From positions 1 to 35,303 of IMG/VR virus record IMGVR_UViG_3300031774_000067: 35,303 nucleotides of DNA. The stretch is one strand, 5' to 3'. Below the pieces are notes generated by a model. That model worked only from the letters and a program-made list of their open reading frames with translations. It searched no databases and was not told the DNA's origin. Numbering within the stretch: position 1 is the stretch's first letter; every line of letters begins with the position of its first letter. This document shows, piece after piece, positions 1-35,303 of this stretch. The DNA comes from a virus. A program made the translations under genes and the position numbers.

Positions 1-1314
1 TACAAATATACAAATCTAAAAAATGGTAGAATTTATATAGGAATTCACTTAGAATCACATAAACCATATCATACATCAAGTAAGGATGAAGATTTTTTAA
101 AAGATAAAGCTGAAAGAGGAGCTCAATTTAAGTTTGAAATATTAGATTGGGGTTCGTTTGAAGAATGTGAAGATATTGAAAATAATCTTTTAGAATCAGT
201 AGATGCGGCAAATAACCCACTTTACTATAATAAGTGGAATGGGAAGCCTGGTGTTAAGAAGAAAAATAAAGAATTTCAAAATCAAGTTACTAAAGAATTA
301 TTTTTACTTAGAAAAGGTAAAGTAAATGCTAAAGTAAAAATTCTATCTAAAGAATGTATTCAAGAACCCAAAACTTTTTTAGACCTGTATAATGAATATG
401 ATTTAGTTCAAATTAGAGATGAGCAAATTAATAGTGATAATGTAGAGGATATTAAAGATGCTATTACTTATAATTATGGGGATGTTGATTATCCAATTTA
501 TCTTCAAAATAGAATGTTTGAAGGAGTATTTTATCCATATCTTCTTATAAGTGGTAATCATACAATTTACACACCAGTATCTATGAAAGAACATTATCAA
601 TTTGAATCAACAGAGTATATTGTAATACCTGAAGATATACATAAAAATTATACTGATGCTGATTGGAGAGCTGTTGCTAATAATATGAATGTAAAAACAC
701 AAGTAATAGGTAAAACATATGATGAGTGGGATGCTCTTAAAGAAGCAATTGATGCCTATGAAGATGGTAATTCTTATTGTACCGAAGATGATTTTGCAAG
801 GTGGAGACTTATGGGTATTGGTAAAAAAATAAATTGGATTATTAAAAAGATTACAGACCATAAAGAAGAAAAAAAACAAAACAGTAAAGGGTTGGTTAGA
901 GTTAACTACAGTACACCTGAAGGAACTGCTCTGTTATCTAAAAAAATAAAAGAAAGAACAAAGGATAAAAGATTGATTATTGATATGGCATCTGGTACTC
1001 CAAGTTTACATAGAATTCTTAATGAATATATTAACAGACAAAAAGAGAGATTTGATGATGGTTTGGAGTTATACAATGAAATATATGTGTTTGTACATCA
1101 TTCTAGTAGAGCTCAAATTGAAAGTTTTAAAACTCTTAAAAATGGTGTATTAAATCACAAAGAGTTTTTTAATGATGTTAACATAGATGATGAATTTAAA
1201 GATAAAATGAAGGGTAAGATGATTACACCTAATATTGAGTTTGAAGAACTTCCTTTATATATGAAGGGTGCAAGATTAAAAAGTTTATTATCCAAAGAAC
1301 TAAAAGTAGCATAA
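1..1314 (+). CDS. GIY-YIG nuclease-like protein with ParB-like domain (5' partial)
   Basis: The frame is open from base 1, so the gene begins upstream of the window; the first internal ATG (514) is not the start. The first in-window residues contain the GIY-YIG hallmark (YTNLKNGRIYIG), followed by a Glu-rich helix (FEECEDIENNLLE) where the family carries its metal-binding Glu. From about in-window residue 134 the protein changes character: VQIRDEQINSDNVEDI and then LISGNHTIYT (about 183-191) resemble the ParB/sulfiredoxin fold, in which a GNH-type motif follows a short strand. The C-terminal third is unrecognised. GIY-YIG domains cut DNA; ParB-like domains bind nucleotides or DNA. TAATG couples it to the next gene. 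The GIY-YIG call is good and the ParB-like call moderate. It could be a homing-type or genome-processing nuclease. Confidence 0.72.
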   Translation, partial: YKYTNLKNGRIYIGIHLESHKPYHTSSKDEDFLKDKAERGAQFKFEILDWGSFEECEDIENNLLESVDAANNPLYYNKWNGKPGVKKKNKEFQNQVTKELFLLRKGKVNAKVKILSKECIQEPKTFLDLYNEYDLVQIRDEQINSDNVEDIKDAITYNYGDVDYPIYLQNRMFEGVFYPYLLISGNHTIYTPVSMKEHYQFESTEYIVIPEDIHKNYTDADWRAVANNMNVKTQVIGKTYDEWDALKEAIDAYEDGNSYCTEDDFARWRLMGIGKKINWIIKKITDHKEEKKQNSKGLVRVNYSTPEGTALLSKKIKERTKDKRLIIDMASGTPSLHRILNEYINRQKERFDDGLELYNEIYVFVHHSSRAQIESFKTLKNGVLNHKEFFNDVNIDDEFKDKMKGKMITPNIEFEELPLYMKGARLKSLLSKELKVA

Positions 1315-1517
1315 TGAAAGTAAAGAAACATTTTTTCTTTAGTAATCGGTTAAGAGGTGAGAATCACCCAAAAGCAAAACTAACTAACCAAGATGTACTA
1401 CAGATAAGAGAACTCTATTCAAAGGGATTCTCTACTTCTGTAATCGCAAGAAACTATAAAGTTAGTAAATGGAACATAGAAGAAATAGTAAATAATAGAA
1501 CATGGACACACTTATGA
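1314..1517 (+). CDS. Small helix-turn-helix protein resembling the tail of HNH homing endonucleases
   Basis: The product is 67 residues. Residues about 15-67 (ENHPKAKLTNQDVLQIRELY, then SVIARNYKVSKWNIEEIV and NRTWTHL) form a classic HTH segment. It is very like the DNA-binding C-terminus of phage HNH homing endonucleases, where 'NHPxAKLT' and 'xTWxH' flank the helices. No HNH catalytic motif is present, so it is either a stand-alone DNA-binding protein or a homing-endonuclease remnant kept as a small gene. The start codon overlaps the previous stop (TAATG), and the end overlaps the following methyltransferase start. This suggests translational coupling among a nuclease, a DNA-binding protein and a methyltransferase. 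Confidence 0.7.
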   Translation: MKVKKHFFFSNRLRGENHPKAKLTNQDVLQIRELYSKGFSTSVIARNYKVSKWNIEEIVNNRTWTHL

Positions 1518-2746
1518 AAGTAACAACTAAGGATTACTTAGAACAATTTAAAGATATGGAGCCATACTTCGAAATTAACGAAGAACAATGGACTTATATA
1601 AAAGAAACATTTCCGAAGGATGAAGTAAAGGAATGTTTGGCGGATATTCTTATGGATTATGAACTACCAACTGCAGAAATATCTGAGTTGGATGCATATA
1701 AGGATTTTATGAAGTTAAAAGGAATCCGTTGGAATGAATTACTTAGAGAAAATGAGTGGTTTCAAAGAAAGGCAAGTGAATCAACGTATCCACTAACATT
1801 CAGAGGTAAACCACAATATATTCGTAGATTGAACTCAGGTAATAACGCATCAAACTACTTCCAACAAGAAAATCGATGGGGTGTTGATGGAACGGTATCA
1901 CCTGGTCCAAAGAGAACTTGGGAAACGAGAAAGTTTATGGTAACACTTATGGGTGGATTATATACTCTAAAGTTTCCAAAGGTAACAAGAAACGAATTAA
2001 GAGTTTGTTTAAGTTTGAGAAAGTATATATGTTCGGCATTCAAACCGAATGTAGCAAAAGTGTTCTATGAAATGATGGAATCTGAAAACGTATTAGATTT
2101 TAGTGCAGGTTGGGGTGATAGATTCGCTGGATTTATGGGTGCATCAAACACTAAACATTATGTTGGGTTAGACCCACGTAAAGAGAATCATCCATTATAT
2201 CAAATGCAAGGTGAGTTCTATAACAAACACTTAGGATTCTTTGAAGAAGATAAAAAGTGGGAGTTCCATTGTACACCTGCTGAGGATTTTGATTTTACTC
2301 CATATGAGAATCATTTTGATATGGTATTCACATCACCACCGTATTTCTCAGTAGAAAGATATTCATATGATGATACTCAGAGTTGGATTAGATATAAAAC
2401 AATCGATGAATGGAATAAGAACTTCTTACACGCAACTTTAGAAAGAATATGGCCATCGGTTAAAAAGGGTGGTTATATGGCAATAAATATTGCAGATGTA
2501 TATGGTTCATCAGGTGGCGAGAGACGGTATTTAGAAATTACTAATCCAATGAACGACTTTATTCAGTCACTCGGCGGTACTTATGAGGGGTGTTTGGGTA
2601 TGGAAATGGCTAAACGACCTGGTTCTGTAGGAGCTGGTCTAGTGATAGAAGGTGATAGGGATAGATACACCGAAGAAGAACTAAGAAAACACGATGAAAA
2701 TGTAGGTAAAACTTTTTGTGAACCAATATGGATTTGGAAAAAGTAA
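1514..2746 (+). CDS. DNA methyltransferase (SPPY-type), first of two paralogues
   Basis: This is a class I SAM-dependent amino-methyltransferase. The SAM-binding motif I (DFSAGWGDR, about residues 195-203) is followed by a DP acidic motif (GLDPRK), and the catalytic motif IV is TSPPYF (about 273-278), as in N6-adenine/N4-cytosine DNA methylases. The N-terminal ~190 residues are probably the recognition or accessory part. I take the start as the ATG at 1514, which makes an ATGA overlap with the previous stop; an ATG at 1502 would add four residues. A paralogue with the same SAGWG and TSPPYF motifs lies at 6806, beyond the polymerase and clamp genes. The target sequence cannot be read from the protein. 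A methylase acting on another nucleic acid is possible. Confidence 0.82.
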   Translation: MKVTTKDYLEQFKDMEPYFEINEEQWTYIKETFPKDEVKECLADILMDYELPTAEISELDAYKDFMKLKGIRWNELLRENEWFQRKASESTYPLTFRGKPQYIRRLNSGNNASNYFQQENRWGVDGTVSPGPKRTWETRKFMVTLMGGLYTLKFPKVTRNELRVCLSLRKYICSAFKPNVAKVFYEMMESENVLDFSAGWGDRFAGFMGASNTKHYVGLDPRKENHPLYQMQGEFYNKHLGFFEEDKKWEFHCTPAEDFDFTPYENHFDMVFTSPPYFSVERYSYDDTQSWIRYKTIDEWNKNFLHATLERIWPSVKKGGYMAINIADVYGSSGGERRYLEITNPMNDFIQSLGGTYEGCLGMEMAKRPGSVGAGLVIEGDRDRYTEEELRKHDENVGKTFCEPIWIWKK

Positions 2747-2758
2747 AGATATTGAAAT

Positions 2759-2798
2759 ACATAGAGAATGTTACTCTATGTTAGGGGAATAGTTCCTC
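2759..2798 (+). promoter_or_regulatory. Two adjacent hairpins in the leader of the outer-membrane protein gene
   Basis: ACATAGAG and CTCTATGT form a perfect 8-bp stem with a 7-base loop (2759-2781). Almost abutting it, GGGGAA pairs with TTCCTC around a 3-base loop (2784-2798, one G-T pair). They lie between the methyltransferase stop and the signal-peptide gene at 2827. There is no T-run after either stem, so these look more like an mRNA-stabilising or regulatory leader than a terminator. The function is inferred. Confidence 0.4.
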
Positions 2799-2826
2799 GA
2801 CTAACTAATTAAAAAAAACAATTATT

Positions 2827-3240
2827 ATGAGAAAATTATTATTAACTTTAACGCTAGTAATTGGAATGATTATTTCAATGAACGCTCAAAATGCAAAAGG
2901 TGATTGGTACATTGGTACTGGTGACATTGCAAATGTAGCATGGACTGATTGGGCTGTAGCTCCAACTGTTGGATATGCGTTTACAGATAACCTAATGGTA
3001 GGTGTTGATGTATCACAAGCAGATTCAACTGAGGACTTAAGTATTGATGTTCACGCAAGATACTTTTTTAAAGGATTCTTTGCGTATGCTGCTACTGAAG
3101 GTTTTGAAACTGATGCTCTTAAATTAGGAGTTGGTAAAATGTTTACATTCCACAAGAGTGTATTCGTTGACCCAAAAGTAGTTTATGATTCAGCATTAAA
3201 AACAACAAACCTTCAATTAGGAGTTGGTTTAAAATTCTAA
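2827..3240 (+). CDS. Small secreted outer-membrane beta-barrel protein
   Basis: The product is 137 residues with a clear Sec signal peptide (charged MRK, hydrophobic core, ending near MNAQ; the AQ junction is typical of Bacteroidota). The mature part alternates aromatic and polar residues in short strands (YAFTDNLMVGVDV, VHARYFFKGFFAYAAT) and ends in NLQLGVGLKF. The terminal Phe and final strand match the BAM recognition signal of outer-membrane barrels. It is short for a barrel, perhaps eight strands. The gene stands alone: two leader hairpins precede it and a strong terminator follows, so it is probably a separate transcript. A phage could use it to alter the host surface, for example receptor masking or superinfection exclusion; that role is inference. 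Confidence 0.72.
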   Translation: MRKLLLTLTLVIGMIISMNAQNAKGDWYIGTGDIANVAWTDWAVAPTVGYAFTDNLMVGVDVSQADSTEDLSIDVHARYFFKGFFAYAATEGFETDALKLGVGKMFTFHKSVFVDPKVVYDSALKTTNLQLGVGLKF

Positions 3241-3260
3241 TGATGAATATTAAGAAGTTT

Positions 3261-3294
3261 AGGAAGGCCGTTTCAATTATGAAACGGCTTTCTT
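3261..3294 (+). terminator. Intrinsic terminator after the outer-membrane protein gene
   Basis: A stem of about 15 bp has its core GCCGTTTCA/TGAAACGGC perfectly paired around an ATTA loop. It extends outward through AGGAAG/CTTTCTT with two G-T pairs. The right arm is T-rich and an A/T-rich stretch follows. It lies 20 bases past the stop codon and just before the promoter for the polymerase operon, so it separates two transcription units. Confidence 0.85.
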
Positions 3295-3302
3295 AAATTA
3301 AA

Positions 3303-3334
3303 TTTGGATATATAAAAAATAATTCGTATATTGT
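3303..3334 (+). promoter_or_regulatory. Predicted Bacteroidota-type promoter before the polymerase operon
   Basis: TTTGG (-33 element, TTTG at 3303-3306), then exactly 20 nt, then TATATT (starting 3327) preceded by TTCG. The same arrangement occurs at 6020, 10989 and 27029. It lies directly after the terminator, where a new transcript should begin. The predicted RNA start (about 3338-3341) falls downstream of the GTG at 3333, which bears on the start of the next gene. Confidence 0.6.
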
Positions 3335-3515
3335 GGTAACATTTACATTTAAGGGTAAGACTTATGAAATCATATCAAATGATGTTATGAGAACACCAAA
3401 AGATTTACTTAGAGATTTTAAATATTGTTTAGAGGTTAACGATTACCAAACAATTAAAAATAGAATTACAAATGGCCTTATGTGGGGTTGGTTAAAAGAA
3501 ATAAAAAATAGTTAA
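3333..3515 (+). CDS. Small unknown protein preceding DNA polymerase
   Basis: I do not recognise this 60-residue protein. It begins MVTFTFKGKTYEI if the GTG at 3333 is used. It is mixed alpha/beta with a basic middle (TPKDLLRDFKY) and an aromatic C-terminus (GLMWGWLKEIKN). The start is uncertain: GTG lies inside the predicted -7 promoter element, and a terminator blocks upstream read-through. Translation may therefore begin at the ATG at 3387 (42 residues). The stop overlaps the polymerase start (TAATG), so it is translationally coupled to the polymerase and may be an accessory factor or a leader peptide gene. Confidence 0.55.
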   Translation: MVTFTFKGKTYEIISNDVMRTPKDLLRDFKYCLEVNDYQTIKNRITNGLMWGWLKEIKNS

Positions 3516-6031
3516 TGTATCAAAACTTATATTACGAAAAAGATAACGGTATCATCCATTGTTGGGATGACCAAAAAGGTTACTTTACTTCTAAATTCCG
3601 TAGATATGCATATTACAGAGATGGTAATGGAGCACATGAATCTATACATGGGGAACGATTAAAGAAAATAAATTTTTGGAAAAAAGAAGATAATCTGAAA
3701 CTATATGAATCAGATGTTAATGAGGTTACTCGTTTCTTAATCGATGAGTATGGTGATTCTGATGAAGTATCAGTAGGACACGTTACCTTAACATTTGATA
3801 TTGAGGTTGAAATGAATAGTGGATTGCCTAATACTGATGAAGCAAAGAATACTATGACATCTGTAGCATTTCACGATTCAGCAACTAATGATTATTCAGT
3901 TTATGTATTGAATGAAGGAAGTGAAATTAACAAAACTATAAAAGGAGCTAAGGTTCGTTCATTTAGAACCGAAGAAGATATGTTGGTAGCATTTGTAAAT
4001 GCTTGGGAAGAAATATCACCAACTATAATCACTGGGTGGAATATTGATTTCTTTGATGTTACCTATCTTTACAACAGATTGAAAAGAGTATTAGGTACTA
4101 AACAAGCAAATAGATTATCACCAATTGGTAAAGTTCATTGGAACAAATATCGTAAGAGATATATTATCGCAGGTGTATCCGCTTTAGATTACATAGCACT
4201 TTATAAAAACTTTACATATACTCAACTACCAAACTATCGTTTGGATACGGTGGCTCAAAAAGAGTTGGGTAGAGGTAAGATTGAATATGAGGGTAACTTA
4301 GACCAACTATTCAGAGATGATATTGAAAAATTTATTGAGTACAACTTAGTAGATGTTGAATTGGTAGTGGATATGGATAAGAAACTACAATTCATTGATT
4401 TGGCGAGAGCCATATGTCATGCAGGCCACGTTTTCTATGAGGATTTCTTATTCTCATCGAAATGGTTAGAGGGTGCGATTTTAACATTCCTTAGAAGAAA
4501 TGGAAGGGTTGCACCTAATAAACCACTTCGTAAAGCTCGTAACGAAGATGGTTCAGAGGGTGAAGATAAATTCATAGGAGCATATGTAAAACAACCAAAA
4601 CCTGGTCTTTACAAATGGGTATATGATTTAGATTTAACTTCACTATATCCATCAATCATTATGAGTATCAATATATCACCTGAAACCAAAATGGGTAAGG
4701 TAAAAGGATATACTGCAGAATCTCATATGAAAGGTGAGTTGAAATCTTACTCAATCATAGATAATGAGGGTAATGAATCACAACCAATACCAAAAGAAAA
4801 CTTTATGAGTTTTATACAACAACAGAAACTATCAGTAGCTTCTAATGGTGTTTTATATAGAACTGATAAAGTAGGTATCATACCTGAGATTCTTAATGTT
4901 TGGTTTGATAAGAGAGTTGAGTATAAGAATGAGATGAAGAAGTTTGGTAAAGCAGGTAATGATGAAAAGTATAAATTCTTTGCTCAAAGACAGTTAGTAC
5001 AAAAGATTATGTTGAATTCCCTTTATGGAGTATTGGGATTACCAGCATTCAGATTCTACGATGTTGATAATGCAGAAGCAGTAACACTTACAGGTCAAAC
5101 TGTAATTAAAACTACTGAGAAGATTGCAAATCAATATTATAGTAAAATTATTGGAGAGGAAAAGGATTATAATATCTATGTAGATACTGATTCGGTATTC
5201 TATCAAGCCGCACCATTAGTAAAGGTTAGGAATCCTGAGATTGATGAAAACTCAGATGAACAAATGATTCCTGCGATTCTATCAGTTGCACAAGAAGTTG
5301 AAGGACACATCAACAAAGTGTATGATACAATGGCATTAAAAATGTTTAACATTCATTCACATCGATTTGATATCAAACAAGAAACTATTGCCAAAGGTGG
5401 ATTTTGGGTATCAAAGAAAAGATATGCACAATGGATTATCAATGATAATACTGTTGATTGTGATAAATTAGATGTAAAAGGTTTGGATGTAAAACGGAGT
5501 TCGTTCCCAACATACTTCAAAGAAGTTATGGGTACGGTGTTAATGGATATTCTGAAATCTACAGATAAAAATGAGATTGATGATTATATCCTCGCTAAGA
5601 AAGATGAAATGACAAAACGTAATTTCATTGATATTGCTAAAAACTCAGCTGTTAAAGGTATGAGTAAGTACACCTTTAAGAAACAAGCAATTGGTGAGTT
5701 TCAAAAAGGTACACCTGCTCACGTAAAGGCGGCGATAACGTATAATCAACTACTCAAATACTATAAAGTACCTTACAAGTATGAGCCGATGAAGGATGGT
5801 GATAAGATTAAGTGGGTATATCTAAAAAATAATCCGTTAGGACTGGATTCGGTTGGAATGACTGGTTACAATGACCCAAAGGAGATTTTAGATTTAGTAA
5901 AAGGGTATATTGATTATGATTTGATTTGGCAAAAAGAGTTGGAAAATAAATTAGATGATTTCTATTTGGCAATGGGTTGGGATAAACCTTCACCTAATAT
6001 GAAAAAAGCTTCACAATTCTTTGGATTTTAA
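3515..6031 (+). CDS. 43: Family B DNA polymerase (T4 gp43-like) with 3'-5' exonuclease
   Basis: This is the replicative phage DNA polymerase, 838 residues against 898 for T4 gp43. The exonuclease motifs are Exo I FDIEVE (about residue 93), Exo II GWNIDFFDVTYLYNR (about 173-187) and Exo III YNLVDVEL (about 274). Polymerase motif A is DLDLTSLYPS (about 372-381), motif B is KIMLNSLYG (about 497-505), and motif C is YVDTDS (about 555-560), with both catalytic Asp groups intact. The C-terminus ends in SQFFGF, resembling the short hydrophobic tail with which T4 polymerase contacts its clamp. The clamp gene follows after 58 bases with its own predicted promoter, and the clamp loader is further downstream. 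Confidence 0.97.
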   Translation: MYQNLYYEKDNGIIHCWDDQKGYFTSKFRRYAYYRDGNGAHESIHGERLKKINFWKKEDNLKLYESDVNEVTRFLIDEYGDSDEVSVGHVTLTFDIEVEMNSGLPNTDEAKNTMTSVAFHDSATNDYSVYVLNEGSEINKTIKGAKVRSFRTEEDMLVAFVNAWEEISPTIITGWNIDFFDVTYLYNRLKRVLGTKQANRLSPIGKVHWNKYRKRYIIAGVSALDYIALYKNFTYTQLPNYRLDTVAQKELGRGKIEYEGNLDQLFRDDIEKFIEYNLVDVELVVDMDKKLQFIDLARAICHAGHVFYEDFLFSSKWLEGAILTFLRRNGRVAPNKPLRKARNEDGSEGEDKFIGAYVKQPKPGLYKWVYDLDLTSLYPSIIMSINISPETKMGKVKGYTAESHMKGELKSYSIIDNEGNESQPIPKENFMSFIQQQKLSVASNGVLYRTDKVGIIPEILNVWFDKRVEYKNEMKKFGKAGNDEKYKFFAQRQLVQKIMLNSLYGVLGLPAFRFYDVDNAEAVTLTGQTVIKTTEKIANQYYSKIIGEEKDYNIYVDTDSVFYQAAPLVKVRNPEIDENSDEQMIPAILSVAQEVEGHINKVYDTMALKMFNIHSHRFDIKQETIAKGGFWVSKKRYAQWIINDNTVDCDKLDVKGLDVKRSSFPTYFKEVMGTVLMDILKSTDKNEIDDYILAKKDEMTKRNFIDIAKNSAVKGMSKYTFKKQAIGEFQKGTPAHVKAAITYNQLLKYYKVPYKYEPMKDGDKIKWVYLKNNPLGLDSVGMTGYNDPKEILDLVKGYIDYDLIWQKELENKLDDFYLAMGWDKPSPNMKKASQFFGF

Positions 6032-6051
6032 ATATATTTTTTGTATATTAG
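6020..6051 (+). promoter_or_regulatory. Predicted promoter for the sliding clamp gene
   Basis: TTTGG (TTTG 6020-6023), a 20-nt spacer, then TATATTAG (6044-6051), matching TAnnTTTG at five of six fixed positions. The -33 element sits in the last codons of the polymerase gene. The clamp ATG at 6090 is 38 bases downstream, leaving an A-rich leader of normal length. This is the best-placed copy of the recurring motif. Confidence 0.68.
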
Positions 6052-6089
6052 TATAATATTAAATTTTAAAAAGTAAAAATAAGTAAATT

Positions 6090-6803
6090 ATGGAAAAAAG
6101 TCGTATTAATCGATTCGTACAAAAGTACAATCTTGCTGGTTTAATTGAATCAGTAAAATGGGATGTAGAGGGGACAACTCTATCTACATCATTTATTTCA
6201 GATGATAAATCGGTATTGGGAACAGTAACAACAACAGATTTTGATTTTGATAAAGGAAGTTATGGTGTTTATGATACTACTAAGTTCACAAAAATGTTAT
6301 CTGTATTAGAAAACGATATTGAGTTATCAACTACAAATGTAGAGGGTAAAGTAGTATCACTTAATATTTCAGATAAAGGAACATCTGCAACTTATATGTT
6401 GGCAGATTTATCAGTTATTCCTGTAGTACCTGATTTAAAACAATTACCTAACTTTAATGTGGATGTTACAATTGATTCTACATTTATTACAAGATTCAAT
6501 AAAGCAAAAGGAGCTTTAGCTGATGAAAAGAACTTTACGTTTGAATGTAAAGGTGGTAGTGGTAAAATAATTATTGGACACTCAAATATCAATACCAATA
6601 GAATCTCTATTGATGTTGATTGTAAGTGTGATGGGGATATAGACCCAATCTCTTTCTCTGCAGATTTCTTAAAAGAAATCCTAAATGCAAACAGAGATGC
6701 AAAAACAGCTAGTTTGAAGATTTCAACTGATGGTTTGGCCCACCTACACTTTGAAGTTGATTCTTACATATCAGATTATTACTTAGTTCAAATACAGGCA
6801 TAA
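6090..6803 (+). CDS. 45: Sliding clamp, DNA polymerase processivity factor (gp45-like)
   Basis: The product is 237 residues, close to T4 gp45 (228). The call rests on size, strand-rich sequence, position between polymerase and clamp-loader genes, and a gp45-like pattern. That pattern includes an early GVYDTTKFTKMLSVLENDIELS segment, where the family has a phenylalanine/leucine-rich helix after 'YDxxKF', and a C-terminal strand ending SDYYLVQIQA. Two clamp-fold repeats are expected, about 1-115 and 120-237. Three such subunits should ring the DNA and tether the polymerase. It has a private predicted promoter, suggesting higher expression than the polymerase, as clamps usually need. Confidence 0.88.
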   Translation: MEKSRINRFVQKYNLAGLIESVKWDVEGTTLSTSFISDDKSVLGTVTTTDFDFDKGSYGVYDTTKFTKMLSVLENDIELSTTNVEGKVVSLNISDKGTSATYMLADLSVIPVVPDLKQLPNFNVDVTIDSTFITRFNKAKGALADEKNFTFECKGGSGKIIIGHSNINTNRISIDVDCKCDGDIDPISFSADFLKEILNANRDAKTASLKISTDGLAHLHFEVDSYISDYYLVQIQA

Positions 6804-6805
6804 GA

Positions 6806-8437
6806 ATGAATCATTTTTACGAAAGGTCACAATTTTCCAAATTTCAATCAAACACAACTTATCATCAGTTATTAGAAATGACTGATGGTGAGTTTACTGA
6901 TTGGGCCAGAACTTTACGAAAAGAAGTTACTGAGCAGTGGGATGTATTTGGAACACCACCTGTGATTGGTAGAAATGAGGATGGTATCATTAAGAGTTTT
7001 AAGAAACTTAAATCTAATCCTGCAGATTATTGGGAAAAGGATTTAAGTGGGGATGATTTATCATTAGGTATTATTAAGAATTTTAACAAAGATGCATCAG
7101 TAGTAAATCAATTCTTTCCAACAATGTTGAAAACAAAGATTTCAACAGGCAAATCTGCGGATGGTGGATTATCTATATACGACCATTTCTCAGACCCAGA
7201 GTTAGAAGAAAAGTTTGTTAGAATTATGAAACGAGCTGTTAAGAGGGATTCAATGTACTCTTGGTCACGTTCAGTTATTGATAAACGAGATGAGAATCCT
7301 TTTTGGAATGGACAAGGTGCTATTGATTTTATCAAAGATGTACATGATGGAAAAGTATTTAATGGTAAGTATTCTAATTTAGCTATTTGGATTTCAAAAG
7401 TAAACACAAGAACTCTTGAAAACTTCGGTACATTCAACAAAGAATATATTGGTAGTAAGAATCTTTATTTAAACTCAGAACAGGTACAGAAATTAAAAGA
7501 TGATGGTTATCTTTCAGATACTCAATTATCAAATATTGATGAAATTGCAGATAGTTGGACATCTGAAGCTGGTACAACACAACATTATGCATATCAGATA
7601 AGATGGTATGAAAAAGACTCAGGTATCTTTCCTAAGATATTACAAGTATTCAGATTAAGTTGTGGACAACCTGCGGTAAACTTTCCAGCATTAACTGCGA
7701 AGTGGATTTATGAAAACTACACATCACATATCGATACCGATGAACCGTTACATATTTACGATTCATCTGCAGGTTGGGGTGGTAGAATCATAGGAGCAAT
7801 GAGTAGTAGAAAGAAAACTCACTATATCGGTACAGACCCTAATCCTGATAATTTCATTGATGAGTTAGGTATTACAAGATATGAGTATGTTGCAAACTTC
7901 TATAACAAAAATTGTGTTGATGATTATTCAGATAAACTTACATCATTCTTTGATGTAAAACCACAATCAAATACTTTTGAAGTATTCCAAGATGGCTCTG
8001 AGTTGATTCAAAACAATCCTGAGTTTCAAAAGTACAAAGGTAAGTTAGATATATCATTTACATCACCACCTTACTTTAATAGAGAACAATATTCACAAGA
8101 TGAAAAACAATCATTTAAGGCATATGGGGAGTATGAAGATTGGAGAGATAATTTTCTCAAACCAACTCTAACTACAATCTATGATTATATGAAAAATGAT
8201 AGATACATCTTATGGAATATTGCTGATATCAAAATAGGTGAAAGTACTTACTATCCATTAGAACAAGATTCAATTGATATCTTAGAAGAATTAGGTTGTG
8301 AGTATAAAGGTAAACTAAAGATGTTAATGACACGAATGGTTGGGTTAGACCCATCTAAGAGTGGAATTAAAAATGCAGTAGAGTATGACGGTAAATCATA
8401 CAAATTTGAACCAATATTTGTATTTCATAAAAAATAA
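6806..8437 (+). CDS. DNA methyltransferase (SPPY-type), second paralogue with long N-terminal domain
   Basis: The product is 543 residues. The catalytic part is C-terminal: motif I SSAGWGGR (about 320-327), acidic IGTDPNPD, and motif IV FTSPPYF (about 417-423) followed by NREQYS. It parallels the 1514 gene, which has SAGWGDR, GLDPR, FTSPPYF and SVERYS in the same order. The two are clearly homologous, but this one carries a roughly 300-residue N-terminal region that I do not recognise, perhaps for target recognition or protein contact. It lies two bases after the clamp gene and three before the clamp loader, so it is embedded in the replication operon. This fits methylation of newly made phage DNA. 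Target unknown. Confidence 0.82.
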   Translation: MNHFYERSQFSKFQSNTTYHQLLEMTDGEFTDWARTLRKEVTEQWDVFGTPPVIGRNEDGIIKSFKKLKSNPADYWEKDLSGDDLSLGIIKNFNKDASVVNQFFPTMLKTKISTGKSADGGLSIYDHFSDPELEEKFVRIMKRAVKRDSMYSWSRSVIDKRDENPFWNGQGAIDFIKDVHDGKVFNGKYSNLAIWISKVNTRTLENFGTFNKEYIGSKNLYLNSEQVQKLKDDGYLSDTQLSNIDEIADSWTSEAGTTQHYAYQIRWYEKDSGIFPKILQVFRLSCGQPAVNFPALTAKWIYENYTSHIDTDEPLHIYDSSAGWGGRIIGAMSSRKKTHYIGTDPNPDNFIDELGITRYEYVANFYNKNCVDDYSDKLTSFFDVKPQSNTFEVFQDGSELIQNNPEFQKYKGKLDISFTSPPYFNREQYSQDEKQSFKAYGEYEDWRDNFLKPTLTTIYDYMKNDRYILWNIADIKIGESTYYPLEQDSIDILEELGCEYKGKLKMLMTRMVGLDPSKSGIKNAVEYDGKSYKFEPIFVFHKK

Positions 8438-8440
8438 GAA

Positions 8441-9370
8441 ATGACAAGAAAAGAAAACACATTGTGGGTTGAAAAATACAGACCCGATACATTGGAAGGG
8501 TATGTTGGTAATGAACATATCTTAGAAAAAGTAAAAATTTATATAGAGAATGAAGATGTACCACATCTACTTCTTTATGGACAGGCAGGTACTGGGAAAA
8601 CAACATTAGCAAAAATCATAACAAATCAGATTGATTGTGATGTTATGTATATAAATGCTTCTGATGAAAACTCAGTAGATGCAGTAAGAGATAAGATTAG
8701 AGGATTTGCAGCAACAATTGGTTTTAGAAAATGGAAGGTTATCATCTTAGATGAATCTGATTATCTAACACCAAATGCACAAGCGGCACTTCGTAATCTA
8801 ATGGAAACATTCTCAACATCTACAAGATTCATTTTGACTTGTAACTATGTAGAGAAAGTGATTGACCCGATTCAGAGTAGATGTCAAACATTTGGAATTA
8901 CACCACCATCTAAGAAAGAGGTGGCAATCCGAATGAAACATATCTTAGATACTGAAGAAGTGAAATATGAGATGGGTGATTTGGTAACTTTAGTGAATAG
9001 TGGGTATCCTGATATTCGTAGAGTTCTCAACGCTGCTCAAAGACAAGTAGTGAAAGGTGAGTTGAAGATTGATAAAACATCAACAATTCAAGCAAACTAT
9101 ATGGATGAAGTTTTAAACTTATTAAAATCGAATGGAAGTGTAAAAGATACATTTACATCCGTTAGAAAAGTGATAGCTGATTCCAAAGTAAAAGATTTTA
9201 CACCATTCTACAGATTCATGTATGATAATGTAGATGATTACGCAAATGGTAAAGTGGGTAACACTATACTAAAGATTGCAGATGCTCAATACAAAGATGC
9301 ATCTGTAGTGGATAAAGAGATTAACATTATGGCGATGATGTTAGAAATAATAATAGACATAAAACAATAA
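8441..9370 (+). CDS. 44: Clamp loader ATPase large subunit (gp44-like)
   Basis: This AAA+ ATPase opens the sliding clamp and loads it on primed DNA. It has 309 residues against 319 for T4 gp44. It starts with the RFC-family box WVEKYRPDTLEGYVG. Walker A is GQAGTGKT (47-54), Walker B is VIILDESD (100-107), sensor 1 lies near ILTCNY (131-136), and the SRC arginine-finger motif is at 146-148. The C-terminal helical collar follows. In T4 four copies of gp44 combine with one gp62, and the gp62-like gene is at 9821. Three bases separate it from the methyltransferase upstream. Confidence 0.95.
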   Translation: MTRKENTLWVEKYRPDTLEGYVGNEHILEKVKIYIENEDVPHLLLYGQAGTGKTTLAKIITNQIDCDVMYINASDENSVDAVRDKIRGFAATIGFRKWKVIILDESDYLTPNAQAALRNLMETFSTSTRFILTCNYVEKVIDPIQSRCQTFGITPPSKKEVAIRMKHILDTEEVKYEMGDLVTLVNSGYPDIRRVLNAAQRQVVKGELKIDKTSTIQANYMDEVLNLLKSNGSVKDTFTSVRKVIADSKVKDFTPFYRFMYDNVDDYANGKVGNTILKIADAQYKDASVVDKEINIMAMMLEIIIDIKQ

Positions 9371-9554: not shown

Positions 9555-9821
9555 ATGGCAAAAAAAGGAAAAGTAATCGGTATGGGTGGTAATAAACAAA
9601 AACCACCTCAAGCCCAACTAAAATTAGACCCTACAAAATTAGATACTGTAGAATGTGATAATTGTGGTGGTGTATTTTTTGAAGAAGTACAGATGTTTAA
9701 AGAAGTACCTGCGGTTCAATCACCTACAGGTCAAAAAACATTATTGCCGATACCTGTACTCAGATGTGTAGAGTGTGGTAATGTTCCTGAAAGATTTTTA
9801 CCAAAAGAACTATTGGGTTAA
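9555..9821 (+). CDS. Small zinc-ribbon protein
   Basis: The product is 88 residues. Two Cys pairs, CDNC (about 34-37) and CVEC (about 71-74), flank a strand-rich centre and would bind one zinc in a ribbon fold. The N-terminus is basic, flexible and Gly/Lys/Gln-rich. It lies within the clamp-loader cluster and its stop overlaps the gp62-like start (TAATG). Such ribbons often bind nucleic acid or polymerase partners; a transcription or replication accessory role is possible but not shown. I do not recognise a named family. Confidence 0.7.
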   Translation: MAKKGKVIGMGGNKQKPPQAQLKLDPTKLDTVECDNCGGVFFEEVQMFKEVPAVQSPTGQKTLLPIPVLRCVECGNVPERFLPKELLG

Positions 9822-16128: not shown

Positions 16129-16131
16129 ATT

Positions 16132-18494: not shown

Positions 18495-18495
18495 T

Positions 18496-20615: not shown

Positions 20616-20617
20616 TT

Positions 20618-24372: not shown

Positions 24373-24374
24373 AT

Positions 24375-25508: not shown

Positions 25509-26217
25509 TCTAATATTAGGATATGGTTTATTAGGTAAAGAGATGGTAAAACAGACCGGCTGGGACTACAAATGTAGAAAAAACGGATTTGATTTACTAA
25601 CATCTAACTTAGAGGATGAGATAATCAACTACATTGATTTACCACATGAAGGTAGAGTTGGATATTCAACACCACCTGTAATAGTGAATTGTGTTGGTAA
25701 TACCGATACATACTCATCTGATAAGAAATCTCATTGGGATGTAAATTATGTTGGAGTATCTAAATTGGTAGATTTCTGTAATAAATATAATATAAAATTA
25801 GTTCACATATCAACTGATTATGTATATGCTAATTCTAAGAATGGTAGAAGTGAAGAAGATATACCTGTTCATAATGAGGATTGGTATTCATATACAAAAT
25901 TATTAGCAGATGGTTATATAGAACTAAAATCAAAAAATTATCTAATAATCAGACCAGGTCATAAACCTAATCCGTTTCCCTATGATAAAGCTTGGGTTAA
26001 TCAGTTAGGTAATTTTGATTATGTTGAAACTATTTGTAAACAAATGGTAGATTTGATTGATGAGGATATGAGTGGTGTTTATAATATAGGAACTGAGATG
26101 AAATCAATGTATGATTTGGCTGTAAAAACTAAACCAAATGTTAAAGAAGCATTTAAACCAAATCACATACCAACCGATGTTACTATGGATATTTCAAAAT
26201 TTAGGAAAATAAAATGA
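25501..26217 (+). CDS. RmlD-like NAD(P)-dependent sugar reductase/epimerase (SDR)
   Basis: The product is 238 residues. This extended SDR enzyme has a glycine-rich loop ILGYGLLGKEM (5-15), VVNCVGNTDT (about 60-69), WDVNYVGVSKLVDFC (about 80-94), the Ser/Thr of LVHISTDYVYA (about 101-111), and the catalytic YxxxK in YSYTKLLADGY (about 129-139). The N-terminal pattern and STDYV box are closest to RmlD (dTDP-4-dehydrorhamnose reductase). It is shorter than RmlD (about 290), with a small C-terminal substrate domain. Together with the aminotransferase it could complete an amino- or deoxy-sugar nucleotide. Confidence 0.85.
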   Translation: MGNLILGYGLLGKEMVKQTGWDYKCRKNGFDLLTSNLEDEIINYIDLPHEGRVGYSTPPVIVNCVGNTDTYSSDKKSHWDVNYVGVSKLVDFCNKYNIKLVHISTDYVYANSKNGRSEEDIPVHNEDWYSYTKLLADGYIELKSKNYLIIRPGHKPNPFPYDKAWVNQLGNFDYVETICKQMVDLIDEDMSGVYNIGTEMKSMYDLAVKTKPNVKEAFKPNHIPTDVTMDISKFRKIK

Positions 26218-27125
26218 AGATAGCATTTTTTACAGAGATGGAGTTTAAAGGAAAGATTGATAAGAATCATCCTAATATGAGAACTGAATTTGCATGGATG
26301 TGTTCATTAGATGCAACACATATGAATCTAATGTATCATAGCACTGAAAAATTTGATTTAGGAATTGCTATAACTCCGAAAAATAATCCAACTGCGGTAA
26401 ACATTGAACATTTAAAAACAATGTGTGATAAGGTGGGTGTAATGCAAGAGGGCCCATTTTGGTTGTTCCAAGATTATGATTTAGAAAAACAAATACATTA
26501 TTATAATAATCTAATAGAATCTGATATAATCTTTACTCATAATGAGCAAGACAGAAAATACTATAAAGGATTAACAAATCACAAAGATGTAAGAGTACTA
26601 CCATCTCTAATGATTTCAGAAGCAGTTGGTGAGTTACCAACTGAAGATAGAAGTGGTATTATGATTGGTGGTAATATGGTTAGTTGGTATGGTGGGTTTG
26701 ATTCATTTATGTTAGCTAACTCAGTTACAGATGAAATCTATCAACCAAAGATGGGTAGAGCTCTACCTAACGAACAACAATTGGGTATCAACCAATTACC
26801 ATATCTACAATGGAATGATTGGGTAAAAGAATTAAACAAACGTAAGATGGGAATTCATATGATGAGAACTCATGCCGCTGGTACATTTGCACTTAATTGT
26901 TCATATGTAGGTATTCCTTGTGTTGGATATGAAGAATTAGATACTCAAAGATTACTTCACCCACATCTATCAGTAGAAAATGGTGATTTAGAAAAAGCAA
27001 GAGAATTAGTAAAAAAGTTGTGGAATGATTTGGATTTTTACAAAGAAAATTGTATATTAACACAACAACTATATAAAGAAAAGTATAGTGAAAATAAATT
27101 TAAAGAAAGATTAAAGTTATGCTAA
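26214..27125 (+). CDS. Probable glycosyltransferase, GT-B-like
   Basis: The product is 303 residues. The N-terminal half is MKIAFFTEMEFKGKI with a later GVMQEGPFWLFQDY and SDIIFTHNEQDRKYYKGL. The latter is the 'host-cell or chain terminator' segment often seen when GT-B enzymes describe a marked position. The C-terminal half has GIHMMRTHAAGTFALNCSYV followed by GIPCVGYEELDTQRLLHP, which replaces the GT4 E-x7-E region with a weaker version. I call it a GT-B-like transferase on overall layout and on neighbours; direct motif support is moderate. It overlaps both neighbours (ATGA; 7 bases). A predicted promoter lies in its 3' end. Confidence 0.62.
   Translation: MKIAFFTEMEFKGKIDKNHPNMRTEFAWMCSLDATHMNLMYHSTEKFDLGIAITPKNNPTAVNIEHLKTMCDKVGVMQEGPFWLFQDYDLEKQIHYYNNLIESDIIFTHNEQDRKYYKGLTNHKDVRVLPSLMISEAVGELPTEDRSGIMIGGNMVSWYGGFDSFMLANSVTDEIYQPKMGRALPNEQQLGINQLPYLQWNDWVKELNKRKMGIHMMRTHAAGTFALNCSYVGIPCVGYEELDTQRLLHPHLSVENGDLEKARELVKKLWNDLDFYKENCILTQQLYKEKYSENKFKERLKLC
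27029..27060 (+). promoter_or_regulatory. Predicted internal promoter upstream of the 27119 gene
   Basis: TTTGG (TTTG 27029-27032), exactly 20 nt, then TATATTAA (27053-27060), preceded by TTG. The first bases after the -33 element (TTTGGATTTT) are the same as in the clamp promoter at 6020. It lies in the 3' end of the GT-B-like gene, 58 bases before the next ATG. Confidence 0.5.
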
Positions 27126-28809: not shown

Positions 28810-28855
28810 CCCGTTTGGTACAGAGTGGGTTATACCTTCTGAGTATGTTTCTTAA
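28709..28855 (+). CDS. Small beta-rich protein overlapping its neighbour out of frame
   Basis: The product is 48 residues, starting at an ATG inside the preceding gene after an A-rich run and ending 46 bases past its stop. CLPIGERVIVISVDKKKQETTIVDPFGTEWVIPSEYVS reads as a compact SH3-like barrel strand order with a Trp/Pro core, far more protein-like than a chance frame. The continuing open frame past the neighbour's stop and the good composition support it, but no strong ribosome site is seen. Function unknown. Confidence 0.55.
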   Translation: MKETFNNHKGCLPIGERVIVISVDKKKQETTIVDPFGTEWVIPSEYVS

Positions 28856-28892
28856 TCCTTCCTATATTTATAATAAACAAATGGAGTAAATT

Positions 28893-29774: not shown

Positions 29775-29855
29775 AATCATTTTAGTATTTTTAATTATTT
29801 TTTTACTATTTATAGGAGAAAAAGTATAACCAAATAACATTTACGGAAATTTTCT

Positions 29856-32852
29856 ATGAAAAAGTATTTAATTTATCTGTTAATGATGATTCCTTTCTTC
29901 GGAATGGCTCAATCAAACGACAGTTGGTTCAAAGTGGAAGTTCAGTTTGATTACTACGCTCCCAGTGAATCATTCGCACTATTAACTCAAACAGGCGATA
30001 CCTTAGTTAATTATCAACCTCAAAACCCATTTGAACTATGGTCAACTGTAGTTCAAGCGGATTCAGGAGATATCGATATCTCATTATTGGATTCTTACGG
30101 AGATGGTTGGCAAGGTGGCCCACAAAACAACAATTCAAACACAACGGCATTTATAAGAATATCAAATGAGTGTCAAGACACAATATTAGATTTAGATATA
30201 ACAGCATTGGGAAATTTTACTCAATATGATACATCTTTTGTTTTAGACCCATGTGCACCACCTGTTTGTAATATTCAAAATGAAACCACATATCAGATAT
30301 GTTTAAATGGGCCCAATTCAGCTGGTGAACAAGTATTAGTAGTATGGGAATGGGAAAACGAATGGTGTGACCCAGTCAATGTAATCTATGGTAACGAAGA
30401 AGGATGGGGGCCATTTACACAAGGTGTAAACCCAGGTGCTACCAATTATGGAATGTTGGCAGGTAACGGACAAATGCCACCTAATTGGGAAGTAGAACAT
30501 TATGCATATGTAGAATACGCAGATGGTTCAGTATCAGACACAATGACATTTACACCAACACCATGTATATCAGGATGTACAGATTCAACTCAAGAAGCAT
30601 TTAACCCTTGGGCTAATGAAGATGATGGAAGTTGTAACGTAACTGTTTGCGACCCAGCAACTGAATATCCAATCACAATGGAAATCACATTAGATAACTG
30701 GCCAAGTGAAACTGGTTGGACTATGAATAGTGGTGGTATTTTACAAGAAGTATTACCAGGTGAATATGATTACTCTGATTTTGGACAAACTTATACTTAC
30801 AATTTTTGTGTATCTCAAACAGCAGGATTTGAATTAATCCTTACAGATACATATGGTGATGGTATGGGTGGTACTCAAACATCTGGACCAGGTACAGTTG
30901 TTATAAAAGATTGTGCTGGTGATACTCTTTGGGAAATGACTAATCCAAACTTTGGAACTACACTTTATTCAGGTCAAACAATGGCAACTTCATGTCCTGT
31001 TATTCCTGATGTGTTCGGATGTACAGACCCAGATTATCAAGAATATAATGATTCAGCAAACGTAGATGATGGGAGTTGTGCTACACTTCACATTTATGGA
31101 TGTATGGATACAAACTCAATTAACTATGATTCAACAGCAACAAAACAATCGATTGTAGAACAATGTGATTACACATTAACTATAGAAGATGCTGGTGGTG
31201 ATGGTTGGGGTAACTCATACTTAGGTGTATCACAAGGTGGTGTACCTCTTGGAACTTATACAATGGGGCCAGGTTTATATGAACAATCATTCCAAATTCA
31301 ATTGGAAACAGATAAAGAAGTAGATGTTTACTATTTCGAAGTTAAAGGACCTCAACAATCAAATCAACAAGTAGAGTTTCAAACTTTACAAAACTCATTT
31401 ACATTAGAAAATGCAGATAGTGTTGTTCTATTACAAGAAGGACAGAATCCATTCTCTAATAACGGAGCAGATGCATTACAATCATTTGAAGCCCCATTCT
31501 ATACAGTTTATTCAGGATTACCTTATTGTGGTGATTATTGTATTCCAATCGTAGAAGGATGTATGGATTCAACTTCATTAAATTATAATCCTGATGCGAA
31601 TGTAGATGATGGAACTTGTATTCCTTATATTGAAGGATGTATGAATCCATTGGCATTTAATTATGATTCTACTGCAACTGTAGATGATGGTAGTTGTGTA
31701 CCTGTAGTTGTAGGTTGTATGGATGATACACAATTCAACTATGATTCTACAGCAAATACACCAGGTACTTGTGTTCCATTTATCTATGGATGTACAGACC
31801 CGAATTCATTTAACTATGACCCGAATGCTAATACAGACGATAGTAGTTGTGTACCAATCATTTATGGTTGTACAGACCCAACATCATTTAATTATGATTC
31901 TACAGCAAATACGGATGATGGTTCGTGTATTGCTAGAATCTACGGATGTACTGATTCAACTCAGTTCAACTACGACCCAACAGCAAATACAGATGATGGA
32001 AGTTGTCAACCATTTATATATGGGTGTATGGATGTTAACTCATTAAACTATGACCCAACCGCTAATACCAATCAGGTATCAGCAACGGATTTCACAAATC
32101 CTTGTATTCCTATTGTATATGGATGTATGGATTCAACATCATTTAATTATGACCCAACCGCAAATGTAGATAACGGAAGTTGTGTACCATTTATATATGG
32201 TTGTATGGATGTTAATTCGTTTAATTACGACCCAACGGCAAATGTAAACCAAGTATCAGCAACCGATTTATCGAATCCTTGTATTCCGATTGTGTATGGT
32301 TGTACTGATTCAACTTCAGTAAACTATGACCCGAATGCAAATGTTGATAACGGAAGTTGTATTACGGCAGTTGTAGGATGTACGGATGTAGCAGCTTACA
32401 ATTATGACCCGAACGCAAACGTATCTGATTCAACGGCTTGTTTATATGATGCAGGTTGTGTTGGTGGACCAGGTGAACCATATTGGTTAAACAATCCTTG
32501 TTATGCGTGGGTAATTGATGTAGACCAATACTGTTGTGATACAGAATGGGATTCAGATTGTGCATCACTATATGATTATTGTGTAGATGGATATCCATTA
32601 GATGTTGAAAGTTTAGGTGGAAACAGAATCGCTGTATTCCCAAATCCAACATCTGATAAAATTAATATAAGTACTACTTTGAAAGATGTAAATTATGTTT
32701 TATATGATTTGACTGGTAGAGTACTAAAAAGTGGTGAAGATGTTAAACAAAGTGAGATTGATATAAGTATCTATCCAAATGCTGTTTACTTACTTCAAAT
32801 AGAGTATGGTGGAAACATATACAATAAGAAAATTATAAAGGAGAACAGATAA
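29856..32852 (+). CDS. Giant secreted Cys-repeat protein with T9SS C-terminal sorting domain
   Basis: The product is 998 residues. It has a Sec signal peptide (MKKYLIYLL core, ending MAQ). The N-terminal half holds three copies of a D-x-x-GDGW/M-G type loop (DSYGDGWQGG, DTYGDGMGG, DAGGDGWGN), probably beta-sandwich modules. There are about 14 copies of a unit GC(T/M)D...(F/L)NYDP.AN.DDGSC, 11 of them in tandem (residues about 568-865). The last ~77 residues are a classic T9SS type A sorting domain: IAVFPNPTSDKINIS, then YVLYDLTGRVLKSG, DISIYPNAVYLLQI, and KKIIKENR. By family it should cross the inner membrane by Sec and the outer membrane by the host T9SS. Cys pairs may form disulfides outside the cell. 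Its leader (29775-29855) has no good ribosome site near the ATG. Role unknown. Confidence 0.9.
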   Translation: MKKYLIYLLMMIPFFGMAQSNDSWFKVEVQFDYYAPSESFALLTQTGDTLVNYQPQNPFELWSTVVQADSGDIDISLLDSYGDGWQGGPQNNNSNTTAFIRISNECQDTILDLDITALGNFTQYDTSFVLDPCAPPVCNIQNETTYQICLNGPNSAGEQVLVVWEWENEWCDPVNVIYGNEEGWGPFTQGVNPGATNYGMLAGNGQMPPNWEVEHYAYVEYADGSVSDTMTFTPTPCISGCTDSTQEAFNPWANEDDGSCNVTVCDPATEYPITMEITLDNWPSETGWTMNSGGILQEVLPGEYDYSDFGQTYTYNFCVSQTAGFELILTDTYGDGMGGTQTSGPGTVVIKDCAGDTLWEMTNPNFGTTLYSGQTMATSCPVIPDVFGCTDPDYQEYNDSANVDDGSCATLHIYGCMDTNSINYDSTATKQSIVEQCDYTLTIEDAGGDGWGNSYLGVSQGGVPLGTYTMGPGLYEQSFQIQLETDKEVDVYYFEVKGPQQSNQQVEFQTLQNSFTLENADSVVLLQEGQNPFSNNGADALQSFEAPFYTVYSGLPYCGDYCIPIVEGCMDSTSLNYNPDANVDDGTCIPYIEGCMNPLAFNYDSTATVDDGSCVPVVVGCMDDTQFNYDSTANTPGTCVPFIYGCTDPNSFNYDPNANTDDSSCVPIIYGCTDPTSFNYDSTANTDDGSCIARIYGCTDSTQFNYDPTANTDDGSCQPFIYGCMDVNSLNYDPTANTNQVSATDFTNPCIPIVYGCMDSTSFNYDPTANVDNGSCVPFIYGCMDVNSFNYDPTANVNQVSATDLSNPCIPIVYGCTDSTSVNYDPNANVDNGSCITAVVGCTDVAAYNYDPNANVSDSTACLYDAGCVGGPGEPYWLNNPCYAWVIDVDQYCCDTEWDSDCASLYDYCVDGYPLDVESLGGNRIAVFPNPTSDKINISTTLKDVNYVLYDLTGRVLKSGEDVKQSEIDISIYPNAVYLLQIEYGGNIYNKKIIKENR
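31557..32450 (+). repeat. Eleven tandem Cys-rich repeats within the T9SS cargo gene
   Basis: Each unit is about 25-33 codons, beginning GC(T/M)D or GCMN and containing NYDP/NYDS, AN or AT, and a DDGSC-type ending. Most are 26 codons; two (from 32022 and 32199) have an insert containing NQVSATD and are 33 codons. Looser relatives lie upstream near 30577, 31017 and 31099. The DNA copies differ by many synonymous changes. Confidence 0.9.
32022..32375 (+). repeat. Direct duplication of a 177-bp (59-codon) double repeat
   Basis: Unit 1 (32022-32198) and unit 2 (32199-32375) each encode one long repeat followed by one short repeat (GCMDVNS..NYDP.. then CIPIVYGC.DSTS.NYDP). I count 47 of 59 identical residues, and about 18 codons changed only synonymously. 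It is a higher-order duplication within the larger array. Confidence 0.88.
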
Positions 32853-32853
32853 A

Positions 32854-33975: not shown

Positions 33976-33985
33976 GGGTAAAAAG

Positions 33986-34270: not shown

Positions 34271-34282
34271 AAAGGGGTTCAT

Positions 34283-34609: not shown

Positions 34610-34646
34610 CATCTACTATACTTATCGATAGAAAGGAGTTACGTTT

Positions 34647-34892
34647 ATGAAATGGATTTGGAGAAAAATTATGGCTTTTGGAAACATATTTAAAGATGAT
34701 AACGACATCAATGAAAAAAATGTAATTGGGTTTATGTCATTCGCAGTAATGACTATATTCGCAATTGTAGATTTAACAACAGGATATTTCGGAAAAGATT
34801 TAGTAATCAATGAGTTTATATACAATTCATTTGTATGGATTACATTAGGATGTTTCGGAATCGCTGGTATAGAGAAATTCGCAAAAAACTAA
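34647..34892 (+). CDS. Two-helix membrane protein, possible holin
   Basis: The product is 81 residues. A strong ribosome site (AAAGGAG, 34632-34638) supports the ATG at 34647 over the ATG at 34671. A basic N-terminus (KWIWRK) precedes two hydrophobic segments, about 27-46 (VIGFMSFAVMTIFAIVDLTT) and about 58-76 (FIYNSFVWITLGCFGIAGI), joined by a short charged loop; it ends in EKFAKN. Class II holins have this size and two-helix layout, and it lies in the lysis region, but the sequence alone cannot tell a holin from another small membrane protein. Confidence 0.6.
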   Translation: MKWIWRKIMAFGNIFKDDNDINEKNVIGFMSFAVMTIFAIVDLTTGYFGKDLVINEFIYNSFVWITLGCFGIAGIEKFAKN

Positions 34893-34916
34893 ATAAAAAT
34901 AACTTACTTAATAACA

Positions 34917-35303
34917 ATGTTAAACATAGCGGAAGAAAAGATGATTTTACTTAAAAATACCTACCTAATAGGGGGAATGGGGATAACATCTCTATGTGCT
35001 TTCTTAGGAAGTTACCTTATGGATTTGACAATGGGTAATGCAGAACAATATATGGCAGTGATGTTAGTATTATTGTTAGATGGATTCTTCGGAGTAATCG
35101 CAGGGATGAAAAGAGAGGGTTTCAAGACCTATAAAGCTCTCAAAGTTTTGAAAAATATGTTTGCGTGGGTGGTAATCCTCACCGTTATATTATCAATCGA
35201 ATTAGGATTTAAGGGTACATCTTGGTTATCCGAAACAATTATAGCACCATTTATGGTATTTCAAATGATATCAGCACTCAAAAATGCATCAATGGCTGGA
35301 TTC
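34917..35303 (+). CDS. Holin-like membrane protein (3' partial)
   Basis: 129 codons are open from ATG 34917 to the window end, so the C-terminus is missing. It has an N-terminal amphipathic segment (EEKMILLKNTYL), then hydrophobic segments ITSLCAFLGSYLM, YMAVMLVLLLDGFFGVIAGM, FAWVVILTVILSIEL and APFMVFQMISAL. The LDGFFGVIAGMKREGFKTYKALK segment matches the turn of the phage holin 4 family, where 'D...G...A.k....sS.k...G' recurs. It would form membrane lesions that free the amidase endolysin. Coordinates of the end are unknown. Confidence 0.68.
   Translation, partial: MLNIAEEKMILLKNTYLIGGMGITSLCAFLGSYLMDLTMGNAEQYMAVMLVLLLDGFFGVIAGMKREGFKTYKALKVLKNMFAWVVILTVILSIELGFKGTSWLSETIIAPFMVFQMISALKNASMAGF

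Follow-up and report, generated by a model that had tools for sequence, protein, structure and literature searches.

The virus contig IMGVR_UViG_3300031774_000067 of IMG/VR, analysed over its full length of 35,303 bases (hereafter the window), is a genome fragment of a T4-like phage, probably one of Bacteroidota. The word GATC is missing from all of it (positions 1-35,303, no strand assigned; exact count 0). This avoidance is shared across the phage lineage to which the window belongs, and we infer that its most likely cause is restriction at GATC in the hosts, exerted by an enzyme and in a host group for which we can propose candidates.

An earlier note on this DNA, made from its letters alone, had claimed that GATC is fully absent and that about 90-110 copies would be expected from base composition; the exact count bears out the former and a computed value of 98.4 the latter. 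The expectation rises to 167.3 when derived from trinucleotide counts, the estimate used for all expected values below unless labelled otherwise (a/b stands for observed/expected). In 200 order-2 Markov simulations of the window, GATC occurred 168.4 times on average (range 132-208) and, in 1,000 synonymous-codon shuffles of its 39 open reading frames (ORFs; 33,996 coding bases), 108.4 times (standard deviation 6.5, minimum 89), compared to an observed count of 0. The deficit thus holds beyond composition, Markov and codon controls, which we count in favour of restriction-site avoidance. Codons in the window ORFs dodge GATC by several routes: Asp ahead of a codon starting with C is always encoded by GAC (51 of 51), ATC is never used for Ile after a codon ending in G (0 of 126), and none of 568 xGA codons has TC next. 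GATC avoidance in the window therefore runs via synonymous codon choice.

GATC is by far the strongest palindrome deficit in the window, though other palindromes are low too. Among the other four-base palindromes, AGCT (observed/expected 1.07), TGCA (1.01) and ATAT (1.11) have normal counts, GTAC is at 0.75, and CTAG (14/73), CATG (34/144), CCGG (1/13) and CGCG (0/4) are low. Mild deficits relative to the codon-shuffle mean are seen for AATT (292 versus 407), TTAA (272 versus 329), TCGA (41 versus 76; 45/64 in the window), TATA (277 versus 322) and ACGT (35 versus 57). Equal depletion across four-base palindromes, named earlier as an outcome that would speak against the claim, was examined, and the depletion proved unequal. 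GGCC is in excess (27 versus 14 expected; 26 in coding sequence versus a codon-shuffle mean of 13.1), in contrast to CCGG, CGCG and GCGC.

We used the family-B DNA polymerase of the window (PolB, gp43-like; 3515-6031, + strand; PHROG 262, E 8e-190) as a lineage marker. The IMG/VR search confirmed at least 593 PolB relatives, of which the best 80 loci were kept. Over these, GATC occurs 44 times against ~6,106 expected, in rows that are not independent and include near-identical contigs (the PolB of L001 and L073 matches that of the window at 100%). The count is zero in 60 of the 80 loci and observed/expected is at most 0.11 in all 80; for CTAG, the next-lowest palindrome, the ratio is at most 0.11 in 22 of them (range 0-0.64). 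GATC stands at 0/671 in the 181 kb of G001, a contig joined from stretches, and at 1/699 in the 167 kb of G005; other joined contigs are near zero as well (G007 0/383, G008 1/466, G006 2/408, G013 0/244, G015 0/186, G012 1/270 and G010 3/228). Four avoiding contigs hold more residual sites, namely G004 (13/658), G002 (20/677), G003 (20/661) and G009 (34/494). In G009, 14 of the 34 sites fall within the first 8.8 kb (1-8789, L143), as if this end had been recently acquired or misjoined. The named phage closest by PolB, Microcystis phage Mel-JY01 (49%), has GATC at 0/357 in 190 kb. GATC is kept in the parts analysed of the cyanophages S-CRM01 (268/274) and P-SSM7 (228/240) and of two marine single-cell viruses (174/233 and 227/260), in G316 (522/656) and in G312 (497/848), where it is present in every 10-kb bin (12-50 each); G313 is a second, partly relaxed contig (23/223). 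Searched at the near-DNA level against the phage collection, bases 1-25,000 of the window gave no match. Among the literature matches listed, this lineage is described in no title or opening of an abstract, passages of PMC11267871 add nothing on it, and a literature search for Mel-JY01 found no paper.

A PolB tree was computed by a quick method from 88 rows, which comprise 66 distinct sequences, with long-branch warnings for Mel-JY01, G316, G312 and the cyanophage-type rows. With GATC-poor defined as a ratio below 0.15, 82 rows are GATC-poor and 6 are not. The label changes 2 times on the tree compared to 5.8 times in shuffles, none of 500 shuffles being as low. G312 is nested within the GATC-poor set, with G316 and four cyanophage-type rows outside. 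The simplest account of this topology would be one gain of avoidance above Mel-JY01 and one loss of avoidance in G312. Because a GATC-rich contig is nested among GATC-poor rows, the avoidance is probably old, and probably reversible with retention of the shared replication genes. We count this pattern, too, in favour of restriction.

Besides GATC, sub-lineages have lost words of their own. CATG is at 0/530 in G005 and 0/297 in G007; ACGT at 1/109 and TTATAA at 0/63 in G006; CTAG at 17/365 and TTATAA at 1/89 in G001; TCGA at 21/228 in G008; and CCGG at 3/119 in G312. In Mel-JY01, CTAG, GAATTC, GATATC, CTGCAG, GCCGGC and GGACC have zero counts besides GATC. The deficit is thus centred on Type II-like palindromes, GATC above all and, by sub-lineage, CATG, ACGT, CTAG, TCGA, TTATAA and GAATTC, with the caveats that a mild general palindrome deficit exists under the codon control and that some non-palindromic words (e.g. 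CCTCC) are low. The lineage-specific loss of such palindromes was counted for host restriction, and the mosaic fits changing host restriction systems with GATC as the constant; the further missing palindromes could then tell which hosts uncultured phages had in the past. Two side observations belong here. Mel-JY01 has five methyltransferase-like genes, assigned by motif and by eye (genes named by eye, here and below, were named with no library run). CCTCC/GGAGG, which is non-palindromic and resembles a ribosome-binding sequence, is strongly depleted in G001 (1/99), G006 (2/49) and G010 (4/40), as is also seen in the G012, G013 and G015 contigs.

Strong selection through GATC-directed host restriction, as put forward in the earlier note, is the best-supported reading of these data, given that the trait is lineage-wide, most simply read as reversed in G312, and accompanied by loss of other Type II-like palindromes; what can be named as its agent is a candidate. 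Long-lasting host restriction at GATC would drive the removal of nearly every site by synonymous change. The agent may be of the Sau3AI/DpnII type, cutting unmodified GATC, of the DpnI type, cutting adenine-methylated GATC, or an enzyme so far unrecognised. If each remaining site cut survival on entry by a similar factor, selection would stay undimmed as sites grew rare, which would account for several long contigs having just 0-2 sites. Sau3AI cuts GATC regardless of adenine methylation, and DpnI cuts adenine-methylated GATC. It can be argued from these cutting rules that adenine methylation would be no shield against both enzyme types, and that site loss would be the sole escape working against either. 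This could explain why GATC is avoided throughout when other palindromes come and go, and it suggests a possible rule by which sites attacked both methylated and unmethylated would be removed and not methylated.

Which hosts could exert such restriction? The window encodes a large protein that ends in a sorting domain for type IX secretion (29856-32852, + strand; Por_Secre_tail, Pfam E 1.7e-10, TIGR04183 E 5e-12), which probably indicates a Bacteroidota host. A possible outer-membrane beta-barrel protein (2827-3240, + strand; PF13505, E 2.9e-5, below cut-off) may be a further, weak clue. Beside its sorting domain, the former protein holds many repeats of a GCTDPTSFNYDPTANTDDGSC-like unit. A search with this protein for the host gave one weak match, Psychroserpens burtonensis, which served only as an entry to its order, and Flavobacteriales were used as a working proxy for the hosts on that basis.

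Genes of GATC-type restriction systems are found in this proxy order. The earlier note had proposed a search of candidate host genomes; in this proxy, such genes are present at low frequency: 13 distinct Flavobacteriales genomes carry Sau3AI-, DpnI- or DpnII-type genes over cut-off, in samples of 292-296 genomes (the three samples are taken as largely the same genomes, and their centre G016, a Sau3AI carrier, is counted in them). Matches to the MutH model that were listed as loci have frames of 417-481 residues, the size of Sau3AI and not of MutH. In both of the loci opened (G016 and G050), from 9 genomes matched, a C5 methyltransferase adjoins the Sau3AI-type gene. G050 carries three consecutive genes (L172, 98-3160), whose products are a C5 methyltransferase, a Sau3AI-type enzyme (just above the cut-off of the NCBIfam equivalog; Protein Data Bank (PDB) match to Sau3AI) and a DpnI-type protein of 162 residues (above the Pfam cut-off and matched to DpnI in the PDB, without a DpnI_C domain). 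Judged from its genes, this operon could attack GATC in both adenine-methylation states. These loci, too, were counted in favour of restriction.

Several findings weigh against it. The known enzymes are scarce: DpnII-type genes are present in 2 of 296 Flavobacteriales genomes (1 over cut-off), MutH/Sau3AI-type genes in 9 of 292 and DpnI-type genes in 6 of 292 (4 over cut-off), and across the phylum Sau3AI is found in 8 of 395 genomes (6 over cut-off). The most interesting point of this analysis, in our view, is that the known GATC enzymes seem not common enough to be the agent; this counts against a simple restriction story. Some avoiding members of the lineage still hold 13-34 GATC sites. Mel-JY01, recorded from a cyanobacterium, also avoids GATC, so that a single host group may not explain the trait. 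Eight further phages with Bacteroidota hosts, of which parts were analysed, avoid the word non-uniformly (P12002L 17/86, P2559S 4/17, 11b 18/30, FCL-2 21/35, phi4:1 22/32, phiST 60/74, phi14:2 70/76 and P12024S 76/76). Lastly, a sea-ice study describes, in an excerpt, a Polaribacter prophage with frequent GATC in a genus with no known GATC enzyme (PMC12570018).

This scarcity bears on one sub-case of host restriction, in which the agent is a GATC-directed defence that is not of the Sau3AI, DpnII or DpnI type by sequence; we assign to it a minor part of the probability given to restriction as a whole. The rarity of known GATC enzymes in the Flavobacteriales and phylum samples favours it, as does G025, a genome of the Flavobacteriales sample with 3 GATC versus ~318 expected in 110 kb (L215, L234-L238), yet with no match to the DpnII, MutH, DpnI, Dam-type or C5 methyltransferase models. 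Pieces of 20 Flavobacteriales chromosomes, pooled and including the Sau3AI carriers G016, G095 and G307 as well as G025, have GATC at 974/1,321. On the other hand, G025 is also poor in GCGC (9 versus ~150) and TCGA (32 versus ~170), the window not to that degree, so G025 need not be a host; it is one of ~22 genomes sampled, and its assembly may be incomplete. Nor was a nuclease candidate found in it: it carries one N6/N4-type methyltransferase, among whose neighbours (3.7 kb, L356) none is nuclease-like by eye. We offer only tentatively the idea that an unrecognised GATC defence, widespread in Bacteroidota hosts and sufficiently strong and persistent, may have purged both a deep phage lineage (with genomes to ~190 kb) and at least one chromosome, that of G025.

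The earlier note had also raised a phage-encoded cause: a GATC-specific nuclease, made by the phage to destroy host DNA, would require its own genome to be GATC-free. Such an enzyme would account for a lineage-wide, host-independent trait, and a core HNH protein (107094-107702 in G001) initially fits, being shared by G001 and, at 72-93% identity, G002-G008, and missing from G009, the avoiding contig that retains the most GATC sites. However, homologues were confirmed at 126 viral loci, and among the best 80 of these, which were surveyed, the GATC ratio is ~0.5 or more in 26, G312 and G316 included; the homologue of the GATC-free Mel-JY01 seems by eye to lack the DH pair. Since homologues occur in GATC-rich phages, the HNH protein was rejected as a self-avoidance nuclease. 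The 13-34 sites carried by some avoiding members also speak against this explanation. Among 65 genes matched in five avoiding genomes, 10 have no match in G312. By eye, six of them encode a thioredoxin, a ribonucleotide reductase subunit, a ClpP-like protein, a tail-fibre-like protein, a membrane protein and a UvdE-like repair nuclease, and the other four small proteins of no assigned function; none is a recognisable site-specific nuclease. GATC-rich G316 carries the genes for the UvdE-like nuclease, the membrane protein and one of the small proteins; Mel-JY01 lacks the UvdE-like gene and has only 3 of the 10. There was no match to the MutH model in the window and none to the DpnII-type model in 17 phage records. 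The Dam-type methyltransferase model likewise matched none of 16 and none of 14 virus records, which included G312 and did not include Mel-JY01, and a Dam-type methyltransferase was thus rejected as the phage's protection. Together, these results disfavour a phage-encoded nuclease, which we consider improbable; because small proteins of no assigned function are among the core genes missing from G312, it keeps low odds.

Less probable still is that adenine methylation, mismatch repair or GATC-binding host proteins, and not restriction, removed the site, as debated for phiX174. Matches to the Dam-type family PF02086 in 9 of 22 Flavobacteriales sampled could be read in its favour; this family also covers other specificities. 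The same holds for phiX174 itself, which lacks GATC and for which mismatch repair is discussed as one factor in an excerpt of PMC5014478. Against it, the frames matching the MutH model are Sau3AI-sized and adjoin a C5 methyltransferase in both loci opened, and losses of other palindromes would be left unexplained. Least likely of all is a mutational process that erased the site without selection, such as deamination of methylated C in GATC: C-to-T change at 5-methylated GATC is chemically plausible, but zero of several hundred sites in 181-kb and 190-kb genomes would exceed usual mutation bias with ongoing input, palindromes of different composition vanish in sub-lineages, and codons evade GATC by several routes.

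Viruses free of GATC are already known, phiX174 and haloviruses among them, and phage K is not known to contain the word either. In excerpts of the respective reports, the 46 phages from hosts that carry Type IIM GATC enzymes all have low GATC counts (PMC6286503), and the haloviruses PH1, SH1 and HHIV-2 have none, with restriction invoked (PMC3622292). Prokaryotic viruses of these two sources resemble the present lineage in having lost a Type II palindrome, and the haloviruses also in combining zero GATC with low CTAG, which is attributed to host restriction; here, in contrast, we deal with a deep lineage, contigs of up to 187 kb, a nested member that contains GATC, and an agent that is a candidate. 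GATC is likewise wholly absent from phiX174, where ~20 copies are expected according to an excerpt of PMC5014478, but that is a 5.4-kb Escherichia coli phage for which mismatch repair is discussed, whereas the present phages are large, T4-like and of probable Bacteroidota. Staphylococcal kayviruses, large phages as well, are said in an excerpt of PMC6445280 to avoid Sau3AI; there, host and enzyme are established, and here both are candidates. A parallel to the argument from two enzymes is the DpnI/DpnII pair of Streptococcus pneumoniae, with opposite GATC methylation needs, for which the authors, in passages of PMC4687349, propose that site loss helps; by the same source, 38 of the 42 prokaryotic genomes that have Type IIM GATC enzymes show low GATC. 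Unlike that case, site loss is proposed here for phages, and the Sau3AI-type and DpnI-type genes form one operon, predicted from its genes. What stands out in the present lineage is the breadth of the avoidance, its near-totality in large genomes, its reversal and an agent that is so far a candidate. Found in many metagenomes, almost wholly cleared of one word and with a GATC-bearing nested relative, this deep lineage of large phages turns the selecting agent into a testable question.

The gene content of the window places it among T4-like phages, with replication genes for gp43, gp44, gp45 and gp62 all present. Besides PolB, these encode a sliding clamp (gp45-like; 6090-6803, + strand; PHROG 223, E 3.6e-13), a clamp-loader subunit (gp44-like; 8441-9370, + strand; PHROG 168, E 4e-81) and a clamp-loader A subunit (gp62-like; 9821-10255, + strand; Pfam Phage_clamp_A, E 3e-7, over cut-off). 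Pfam and PHROG scans also find a PD-(D/E)XK exonuclease. T4-type virion genes were noticed by eye in relatives only, the window being a 35-kb fragment.

Two related putative DNA methyltransferases are encoded, each with a TSPPY motif. The first (1502-2746, + strand) matches Pfam N6_N4_Mtase below cut-off (E 1.3e-4) and the DNA methyltransferase families PHROG 67 and 498; the second (6806-8437, + strand) matches PHROG 498 (E 1.6e-8) and no Pfam family. Neither has a family in an NCBIfam search, and no PDB relative was found for the first, which matches corresponding genes in G013 and G015 at 39-41%. The window methyltransferases were rejected as the source of lineage-wide avoidance: the first was found in just 2 of 15 relatives searched and therefore cannot explain it. 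Finally, a long run of genes at 12897-27125 resembles, by eye, glycosyltransferases and sugar-nucleotide enzymes; three of them were searched and correspond to a UDP-glucose/GDP-mannose dehydrogenase, a DegT aminotransferase and an oxidoreductase fusion.

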